In this document: in pieces, positions 14,663-16,908 of the stretch | Position numbering within the stretch: the first letter of the stretch is position 1 | Layout of the letters: every line of letters starts with the position of its first letter | DNA from: Chloroflexi bacterium bin125 | GTDB taxonomy: Bacteria; Chloroflexota; Dehalococcoidia; Bin125 | DNA: 54,440 bases | Assembly (NCBI GenBank): GCA_002239025.1 | Contig: MPNM01000019.1 | Span: forward strand, 1 to 54,440 | Direction: 5' to 3' | Made by a program: the position numbers and the translations under genes | Notes under the pieces: model-generated | Database searches by the model: none | Told to the model about the DNA's origin: nothing | Seen by the model: only the letters and a program-made list of their open reading frames with translations

Positions 14663-15628
14663 ATGTCAAGCATTAGCGAAACTGCCGACACTACCGAAAC
14701 CACCCTCAACCTACATCTGCCCGACACGCGGCCGTGGTGGCAGGTCTGGGCCCGTCACGCCCGCAACAAGCCGCTGGGCGCAATCGGCGCAGTCTTCATT
14801 CTGATCCTGGTAGTAGCCGCCGTCTTCGGTCAGGACATTAGCATCGGCGGATCTACGATCGTTCCCGGCTTCTCGCCCTATCCGGCCAGCGAAACCGACA
14901 TCATTAACAAGCTGGCCGCGCCATCCTGGCCCGGACACATCGCCGGAACAGACTCGCTCGGTCGCGACCTGTTCAGTCGCATCATCTTCGGAGCCCGTCC
15001 GGCAATCGTGATCGGCATCGTCGCGACGGGCTTGGGGATTCTCGGTGGGATGGTGATCGGCATGACTTCGGCTTATGCCGGGGGAGTGACCGACCTCCTC
15101 TTGCAGCGCATCTCTGACGCCTTCCAGGCGCTGCCTCCGCTCCTGCTGATGATGACCCTGGTCACGGTGTTGACTCCGAGTATGACTACGGTGATTCTCG
15201 TGATCGTGATTTTCTTGATACCCGGGACTCAGCGTGTCGTGCGCGGCACTGTGTTCTCGACGCTGGAGAACACGTACATCGAGGCGGCCAGAACGATTGG
15301 CGCGGGACCGTTCAGGATTATCACCTTCCACATCTTGCCCAACATCATGGCTCCGATTCTGGTTATCGCCTCGGTGACGATCGGAGGGACGATTCTCGCT
15401 GAGGCTGCGCTGTCCTTCCTGGGCCTGGGCGCAAACTCAGCTCAGAATCCGACCTGGGGATTCATCCTCTTTGAGGCGACCCAGCGCGGCAATCTCGACC
15501 GCTGGCCATGGCTCGCGATTACGCCGGGCGCCGCAATCACGTTGATTGTGCTGGCCTTCAACCTCCTCGGCGACGCGCTCCGCGATGTCCTTGATCCGCG
15601 ACTTCGGGGAACCGGAGCGGGAGCCTGA
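14663..15628 (+). CDS. ABC transporter permease, DppC/OppC type
   Basis: A 321-residue integral membrane protein. Its N-terminal cytoplasmic segment is followed by the first helix (about 38-56), an extracytoplasmic stretch and the family signature GTDSLGRDLFSRI at the start of the permease core. The EAA motif is EAARTIGAG. The C-terminus FNLLGDALRDVLDPRLRG is standard for OppC. GGAGGAGGG lies upstream of the ATG. It is the partner of the preceding permease and the last gene of the cassette. Its extracytoplasmic loop has ordinary length, in contrast to the OppC-type protein at 28204-29370. Confidence 0.93.
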   Translation: MSSISETADTTETTLNLHLPDTRPWWQVWARHARNKPLGAIGAVFILILVVAAVFGQDISIGGSTIVPGFSPYPASETDIINKLAAPSWPGHIAGTDSLGRDLFSRIIFGARPAIVIGIVATGLGILGGMVIGMTSAYAGGVTDLLLQRISDAFQALPPLLLMMTLVTVLTPSMTTVILVIVIFLIPGTQRVVRGTVFSTLENTYIEAARTIGAGPFRIITFHILPNIMAPILVIASVTIGGTILAEAALSFLGLGANSAQNPTWGFILFEATQRGNLDRWPWLAITPGAAITLIVLAFNLLGDALRDVLDPRLRGTGAGA

Positions 15629-15636
15629 TTTCTTCG

Positions 15637-15665
15637 GGAACCTTTTGCGACCTGCCGTCGTCTTA
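15637..15665 (+). promoter_or_regulatory. ECF-sigma-type promoter
   Basis: GGAACC (15637-15642), a 16-base spacer and CGTCTTA (15659-15665) match the general pattern of extracytoplasmic-function sigma promoters (GGAAC, N16, GTC/CGTC). It begins 8 bases after the permease stop and is followed by the hairpin series and terminator. The hairpin CCGTCGTC-tta-GATGACGG (15655-15673, one G-T pair) overlaps the -10 region. No ECF sigma gene is in the window. Confidence 0.5.
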
Positions 15666-15671
15666 GATGAC

Positions 15672-15818
15672 GGAGGGTCAGTGAGGTCAGACGGTAGAAA
15701 CTGTCACCCCGCCCGCCCGCCGATGTCCGCATGTGAGACATCGGTTGTCTCTCCGACTGGCCACCCTCCAGTTGCCTGTGTCGCGCCCCCGCCCAACCCG
15801 GCGGGGGCGCTTCCTTTT
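15672..15818 (+). ncRNA. Candidate structured small RNA
   Basis: Between the ECF-like promoter and a strong terminator lie hairpins in series: GACGGT-agaa-ACTGTC (15690-15705, one wobble pair), CCGATGTC/GACATCGG (15720-15744) and ACTGG/CCAGT (15756-15772), then the terminator stem 15783-15810. The frames here show no protein-like composition. A transcript of about 145 nt is predicted. It does not look like tmRNA, RNase P or SRP RNA. A 3' UTR of the permease operon is the main alternative. Confidence 0.4.
15783..15818 (+). terminator. Rho-independent terminator
   Basis: An 11-bp perfect GC stem, GCGCCCCCGCC (15783-15793) with GGCGGGGGCGC (15800-15810), a 6-base loop, then TTCCTTTT. It ends either the permease operon or the candidate small RNA. 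Confidence 0.85.
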
Positions 15819-15867: not shown

Positions 15868-15986
15868 TCCCCTCTCCCTTTGGGAGAGGGTTAGGGTGAG
15901 GGCCGGCACGTGGCAGGCGTGCGACTAAACGCCAGACAGTGGTACTCGGGCACCTTCACCCCGGCCCTCTCCCAAAGGGAGAGGGA
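15868..15986. repeat. Paired-arm palindromic repeat, family B
   Basis: Two inverted hairpin arms: CCCTCTCCC-ttt-GGGAGAGGG (15870-15890), followed by TTAGGGTGAGGGCCGG, and, about 70 bases on, CCTTCACCCCGGCC leading into CCCTCTCCC-aaa-GGGAGAGGG (15965-15985). The arms are near reverse complements over about 35 bases, giving a MITE- or REP-like element. It fills the end of the 401-base gap between the convergent permease and HdrB-like genes. Apart from the promoter, hairpins and this repeat, nothing else is seen in 15629-16029. Confidence 0.75.
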
Positions 15987-16029: not shown

Positions 16030-16908
16030 TTACACGCCGAGCTTGTTGAGCAGGTTTCGCGTATCCACGACGTGCCGCGTCAGACCCAGCTTCTCAGGGT
16101 CGATGCCCATCGCCAGTCCCATTAGCTGCGGGACGTGCAGGATTGGCAGGTTGAGGCTGCGGTCAATGACCTTTGCGGCGTCCGGTTGCTGAGCGTCGAG
16201 GTTGAGGTGGCAGAGCGGGCACGGCGTGACGAGAGCATCCGCACCCTTCGACTGCGCCTCATCCAGGTGCGAGCCGGCCATGGTCAGCGAGTTCTTCTTG
16301 TTTGTGGTCAGGATCGGGAATCCGCAACACTTGGTCATGCCATCGTAGGTGACGGTCGTCGCGCCGAGGATGTCAATCAACTGCTCCAGGCTGTCACGGC
16401 GGGTGGGATGCGCATCGAAGTCAAGCGTGCGCTCCGGTCGGACGATGTAGCAGCCGTAGAACGGACCGAGATTAAGTTCTTCCAGCGGTCGCTTGATCAT
16501 CGAGTTGATCTTGTCGATCCCAACATCCTCAAGCAGGATCCAAAGGAGGTGTCGCGGGTCGGCGGAGCCTCGGTACTCGATGCCCTCCGGCGCGAGGTGA
16601 TGGTTAATGCGGATGCGGTAGTCGACATCGCGCAGTTTCTCAGCCGCGAGGCGGTGAACGCCGACGCAGGTGGAGCAGATGTCCATCAGCGGCAGATCCA
16701 TCTGCTCGGACATCGCCATGGTGCGGGCGTTAAGCACGTCCTGCAGGTACGGCTCACCGTCAGAGATGATGCCGGCGCCGGTGCAGGCGGCGGCTTCCAA
16801 CTCGACCAGGTCCATGCCGAGATGCTCGGCGACGGCCAGCGTCGAGGTGTACAGCTCGGGGGCTGCTCCGCGCGCTACACAGCCGGGCCAGAATGCGTAC
16901 TTGCTCAT
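16030..16908 (-). CDS. HdrB-like CCG-domain subunit of succinate dehydrogenase/fumarate reductase (SdhE-like)
   Basis: A 292-residue protein with two cysteine-rich CCG-type modules, as in heterodisulfide reductase subunit B and the third subunit of class-E succinate:quinone reductases. Module two is complete: Cys153, Cys194-Cys195 (CCGFP), Cys230 and Cys233. Module one has Cys10, Cys42, Cys78 and Cys81, but the second Cys of its CC pair is Thr43, so it is degenerate. It lacks obvious transmembrane helices, so it would be a peripheral subunit linking SdhB to the quinone pool. It is the last gene of sdhA-sdhB-hdrB, 57 bases after sdhB. GGGGAG lies 11 bases before the ATG. Confidence 0.88.
   Translation of the reverse strand: MSKYAFWPGCVARGAAPELYTSTLAVAEHLGMDLVELEAAACTGAGIISDGEPYLQDVLNARTMAMSEQMDLPLMDICSTCVGVHRLAAEKLRDVDYRIRINHHLAPEGIEYRGSADPRHLLWILLEDVGIDKINSMIKRPLEELNLGPFYGCYIVRPERTLDFDAHPTRRDSLEQLIDILGATTVTYDGMTKCCGFPILTTNKKNSLTMAGSHLDEAQSKGADALVTPCPLCHLNLDAQQPDAAKVIDRSLNLPILHVPQLMGLAMGIDPEKLGLTRHVVDTRNLLNKLGV

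Follow-up and report, generated by a model that had tools for sequence, protein, structure and literature searches.

A probable small regulatory RNA gene in a family of Dehalococcoidia shares its ECF-type promoter with an anti-sigma locus

In the 54,440-nt contig MPNM01000019.1 of Chloroflexi bacterium bin125 (assembly GCA_002239025.1), which we analysed whole and refer to as the window, an intergenic gap very probably holds the gene for a small regulatory RNA (sRNA) not described before, limited to one family of Dehalococcoidia and under the same stress-type sigma factor as an anti-sigma gene and surface proteins. Its parts lie in order on the forward strand. A -35 element, GGAACC (15637-15642), is followed after a 16-nt spacer by a -10 element, CGTCTTA (15659-15665), an arrangement of the extracytoplasmic function (ECF) type that an earlier note on this DNA had pointed out and that is present as described; the string GGAACC-N16-CGTCT (15637-15663) occurs once in the window, against 0.05 occurrences expected from shuffles. 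The predicted RNA spans about 145 nt (15672 to about 15816) and runs into an intrinsic terminator with a GC stem and a T-rich tail (15783-15818). The segment 15672-15818 folds with an energy of -72.5 kcal/mol (z = -5.1), and none of 200 shuffled sequences was equally stable.

We examined the distribution of this RNA in the 20 genomes of the family, which fall into five genera, 15 of them in the genus of the window, together with a comparison set of 373 other genomes of the class. The named records among them are metagenome-assembled genomes (MAGs) of Chloroflexota/Dehalococcoidia, and several of the isolate prefixes probably denote sponge metagenomes. Searching with the DNA recovered the gap from each of the 14 remaining genus genomes, at 68-84% identity, and from one sister genus. 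Covariance models, all built without the promoter, extended this range. The first, R1, made from 13 sequences, yields one syntenic copy in 14 of the 15 genus genomes, the contig of the fifteenth (G002) ending inside the RNA, and also picks up the G017 copy, which is syntenic and diverged (E = 7e-5). With the G017 copy added, R2 matches G015, G018 and G019, and R3 additionally matches G016, so that all five genera are represented. By covariance model the RNA is thus present as a single copy in 19 of the 20 family genomes, and R3 has no match in the 373 other genomes of the class. Within the genus, the RNA hardly varies from GGAGGG up to the terminator, single-base indels in loops apart. One further record, JAPOYW010000174.1 (L119:5150-5390), is filed as a gammaproteobacterial MAG and carries the permease end typical of the genus, the promoter and the RNA (126 bits with R3), with about 20 nt extra in the linker past GGAGGG and the helices kept; it is probably a mis-binned contig.

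Alignments and folds describe a rod composed of a closing helix, a second helix, an internal single-stranded loop and an apical hairpin. The closing helix, placed by the covariance alignments, pairs GGAGGG(T) at 15672-15678 with (A)CCCTCC at 15763-15769 and hardly varies. Helix 2 joins GGTCAG.CGG.AG (15685-15697) to CTCCGACTGGCC (15751-15762), a pairing backed by covariance and by the folds of sister-genus RNAs, and it is kept in sister genera where the sequence is quite different: GGTCAG.CGG/CCG.CTGGCC in the window corresponds to CAAGTCGCA/TGCGACTTG in G015 and to GACCGA/TCGGTC in G018 and G019. Between helix 2 and the apical hairpin GCCGATGTCC...GACATCGG (15719-15745) lies the C-rich loop GTCACCCCGCCCGCC (15703-15717), a candidate seed or protein site that is nearly invariant across the five genera, single-stranded in the rod and mostly unpaired in sister-genus folds; GTCACCCCGCCCGC is kept everywhere except in G016, which has GTTCCCCCCGCCCGCC. 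In A6, which aligns 17 sequences representing four genera, standard pairs fill 96.7% of pair cells, and 21 of 40 pairs (54 cells) show two-sided changes, a level that none of 500 shuffles reached; among them are 8 of 10 pairs of the apical hairpin and 7 of the 10 modelled pairs of the terminator. The covariation score of A6 is 0.290, as compared with 0.104 +/- 0.010 for shuffles and no more than 0.077 once the structure is slid, so the covariance search over homologous gaps that the earlier note had proposed as a check returned the compensatory changes it asked for. Nine pairs with two-sided changes are already seen in an alignment of the genus and G017 alone.

Some structural details did not hold across the family. 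The minimum free energy fold of the window sequence contains the three hairpins plus terminator that the earlier note described, but the third hairpin (GACTGG/CCAGTT) is unconserved, and across homologues its bases pair with the 5' part of the RNA (GGAGGG/CCCTCC and GGTCAG.CGG/CCG.CTGGCC). A pseudoknot between linker and loop is possible in the genome of the window and in G017, is inconsistent elsewhere by eye, and was set aside. The terminator called strong from the sequence has its 11 pairs, all GC (15783-15810), and no stronger terminator-like site was found nearby, but its U-tract is weak in the window (TTCCTTTTG) and poorer still in most relatives; in two sister genomes the tail reads CTCGTTTTGG. 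The G011 terminator (L088) appears as a string of C, which may be an assembly error.

The promoter is conserved together with the RNA. GGAAC(C/T)-N16-CGT lies 35-37 nt before GGAGGG at 20 of 20 loci, the distance from GGAAC being 35 nt in 18 and 36 and 37 nt in the other two, with a 16-nt spacer in all. Within the genus the GGAAC and CGT boxes are constant, unlike much of the spacer; across the family, GGAAC is constant as well (15/15 genus genomes, 5/5 sister-genus loci), and the -10 element reads CGTY among homologues. Because the covariance models contained no promoter, the five sister-genus cases are independent. As side observations, TTATGTC is retained some 35-40 nt ahead of the -35 element in four sister-genus loci (L184, L186, L187 and L189), and G015 and G019 share CGAACATTGCACG upstream of the promoter; either could be a site for an extra regulator.

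Three genes in the genome of the window contain sigma-70 region 2; two of them are RpoD-like and the third is an ECF. The gene that follows the ECF encodes an anti-sigma factor matching zf-HC2 (E = 4e-7) and RseA_N (E = 1e-4), with an apparent membrane segment, and GGAACC-N16-CGTCTAAATT is located between the two. The anti-sigma gene of the genome's only ECF sigma factor is preceded by the promoter of the sRNA, too, which bears out the ECF-type reading of the sRNA promoter in the earlier note. All 14 genus genomes that have the ECF carry GGAACY-N16-CGTCT before the anti-sigma gene, and all 5 sister-genus orthologues of the ECF carry GGAACT-N16-CGTC there, with identical spacing in all 19 ECF loci; none of the more distant ECFs examined has this promoter at the anti-sigma position. 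The sRNA and anti-sigma loci of the same genome thus share a promoter type (14/14 genus genomes, 5/5 sister-genus orthologues). Judged from these comparisons, it is very likely that the locus is an RNA gene with an ECF-type promoter, and its control by the C51-type ECF appears likely.

Other conserved sites outline a predicted regulon. Recurrent GGAACC-N16-CGTCT sites in the genus precede orthologous genes for secreted PF09826 beta-propeller proteins (7 genomes), VWA lipoproteins (5 genomes), MreB (2 genomes), a VanW-like protein (2 genomes) and a 489-aa lipoprotein, of which the window's genome has two copies and G011 one relative. In several of the predicted ECF-controlled genes the ATG is only 7-8 nt past CGTCT (L135, L136, L138, L150, L155, L166, L169, L173 and L180), suggesting that these genes give leaderless mRNAs; the same spacing suggests an RNA start at 15671-15672, within a predicted range of 15670-15673. 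The term 'stress' in the earlier note would follow from the type of anti-sigma factor and from the envelope regulon, and the predicted gene set supports the label 'envelope' rather than any inducing signal. A second site in the window's genome, GGAACCTTT-N13-CGTCT (C30:65473), falls inside a long open reading frame (ORF) and is probably a chance match.

We next consider what the RNA is likely to do and which observations, in this and the next paragraph, weigh against an ECF-driven sRNA that acts by pairing. Genome-wide, GGAAC-N17-CGTCT is not enriched (24 sites against 65 in the reversed control, both strands), and for this reason only conserved sites were used above, single sites proving little without conservation. 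Since the structure guided the covariance alignment, the counts are biased in its favour; slid controls and single-sequence folds of sister-genus RNAs served as safeguards. When single sequences are folded, helix 2 faces competition in part of the genus from a local hairpin, GACGGT/ACTGTC, that takes up some of the loop bases. The target test, which covered 0.85 Mb of the window's genome and 751 roughly called start regions, found loop complementarity of -20 kcal/mol or better in 71 of the 751, not significantly more than the 57 +/- 18 of permuted loops, and the antisense-strand count was 49. That lack of enrichment, the near invariance of some 15 nt between two helices and the failure to find Hfq count in favour of an RNA that is made from the ECF promoter and binds a protein through its internal loop, whether an RNA-binding protein or, in the manner of 6S, RNA polymerase, instead of pairing with mRNAs. 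We consider this unlikely but worth keeping in mind, as C-rich exposed loops are recurrent seeds in ECF-dependent sRNAs such as GsrN (PMC5869019) and FoxI/FoxJ (PMC11005410), and the RNA shrinks to about 100 nt when the terminator is not counted and matches no 6S family of Rfam; on balance, we lean slightly towards base pairing by the loop. Separately, a glmS-like gene (G000:C12:151091-152947, -, in the window's genome) has GGCGGGGTAGAC upstream of its start, a near complement of the sRNA loop that is partly kept, in weaker form, in G001 as GGTGGGGCAGAC; the glmS leader as a target of the sRNA is only a lead.

The identity of the activator is the other point on which the evidence is divided. 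The sRNA -10 element is CGTT and not CGTC in G015, G016, G018 and G019, whose anti-sigma promoters keep CGTC and whose genomes have several ECF paralogues, and this is a real weakness of the ECF assignment in those four sister-genus genomes. A different sigma factor or an ECF paralogue could thus drive the RNA outside the C51-type ECF regulon, which we regard as rather improbable given that the window's genome has a single ECF-type gene, with the same promoter at identical spacing before its anti-sigma gene. Two other readings of the gap are already largely refuted, and we give either of them very little credence. Reading-through from the permease operon would make the RNA a mere terminator or 3' untranslated region with a chance promoter match, as its position directly past the permease gene on the same strand would allow, but the RNA and promoter are kept in G015, G016 and G019 despite a different upstream gene, and the promoter boxes are conserved where the spacer is not. 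Nor does the gap appear to encode a small protein or a dual-function RNA: a mechanical 117-aa ORF does cross it in the window's genome, and GGAGGG resembles a Shine-Dalgarno site, yet in close relatives 1-nt indels in the loops break the frame, GGAGGG is paired and the changes are compensatory by pairing. Because of these indels the gap is not coding, as the earlier note had held in seeing no protein-like frame there.

Two genes flank the gap. Upstream lies an OppC/DppC-type ABC permease gene (14663-15628, +), which marks synteny in the genus and G017 only; downstream, a convergent gene for an SdhE/HdrB-like subunit (16030-16908, -), the 3' end of an sdhA-sdhB-sdhE set, marks it in most genera. 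With no same-strand gene downstream here, and a convergent one likewise in most sister genera, the RNA is not a riboswitch or other mRNA leader. Just past the terminator, at 15870-15985, is an inverted repeat with 33-nt arms (CCCTCTCCCTTTGGGAGAGGGTTAGGGTGAGGG) that resembles repetitive extragenic palindromes and bacterial interspersed mosaic elements (REP/BIME); a similar piece occurs in the same gap of G003 and G001 and not in most relatives.

We then compared the RNA with known families and systems. No Rfam family reaches its gathering score anywhere in the window, 6S families included, in agreement with the earlier note's view that the RNA lies outside known families, and the Chloroflexi-1 motif (RF01698), listed from Chloroflexus aggregans (PMC2864571), has no match in the window in the same scan. 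There is a weak full-length match of the window sequence to Atu_C7 (RF02501), a Rhizobiales sRNA, which at 22.7 bits against a gathering score of 45, and with no match in the four homologues tested, we judge to be chance. The RNA family is new and probably of an already known functional kind, the ECF/sigma-E-dependent sRNAs: it has its own ECF-type promoter at a fixed distance, this promoter is common with the ECF/anti-sigma locus, and its conserved structure is non-coding. Hfq-dependent sRNAs presuppose a genome that encodes Hfq, and the 97%-complete genome of the window has no match to PF17209, while the control was positive in five genomes; no place in that class can therefore be claimed. 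In the open-access literature we found no ECF-dependent sRNA described from Chloroflexota.

The sRNAs MicA and RybB of enterobacteria are Hfq-dependent, differ in structure from the window RNA and target the mRNAs of outer-membrane proteins. Being sigma-E-dependent, they share with it the proposed position of a non-coding arm of a sigma-E/RseA-type system (PMC1804206). FoxI/FoxJ, the sigma-E-dependent sRNAs of Fusobacterium nucleatum, resemble the window RNA as proposed here in their ECF/sigma-E promoter, their role as the non-coding arm of an envelope response, their cytosine-stretch seed and a host without common RNA chaperones (PMC11005410); unlike theirs, the C-rich loop here sits inside a two-helix rod, and the likeness is one of description. 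GsrN, the sigma-EcfG-dependent sRNA of Caulobacter, is, as we propose for the window RNA, an ECF-controlled stress sRNA whose C-rich loop is its most conserved part and whose BLAST-level homologues are limited to one family (PMC5869019), but it is Hfq-stabilised and belongs to the general stress response, whereas in the window's genome a search for Hfq gave nothing and the partner of the ECF is an anti-sigma factor of the zf-HC2/RseA_N-like kind.

Taken together, we propose a free-standing sRNA of about 145 nt with its own ECF-sigma promoter and hairpin terminator, whose likely activator would be the conserved ECF sigma factor of the lineage. A membrane anti-sigma factor, zf-HC2/RseA_N-like in its cytoplasmic domain, would restrain that sigma factor; once freed, the sigma factor would induce the anti-sigma gene as feedback, the secreted and lipoprotein envelope proteins, and the sRNA. 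The rod would protect the 5' end of the RNA (GGAGGG:CCCTCC) and display the nearly invariant C-rich loop GUCACCCCGCCCGCC, which would most likely pair, free of Hfq, with G-rich stretches of mRNA leaders and so down-regulate envelope or transport genes. We consider this proposal as a whole, an ECF-driven sRNA whose rod-displayed loop pairs with mRNA leaders without Hfq, to be probable. More tentatively, in Hfq-less Chloroflexota the new family may form the non-coding side of an ECF/RseA-like envelope response, with its 15-nt rod loop serving either as a seed that needs no chaperone or as a binding site for an RNA-binding protein, in a lineage where several co-regulated mRNAs look leaderless. 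The covariance model, promoter consensus and first regulon now available for this otherwise uncharacterised ECF system can be used directly in metatranscriptomes and, if the RNA is transcribed, the design that couples sigma-E to an sRNA would be known from one more phylum, a distant one, and there from an uncultured lineage in which no Hfq is detectable.
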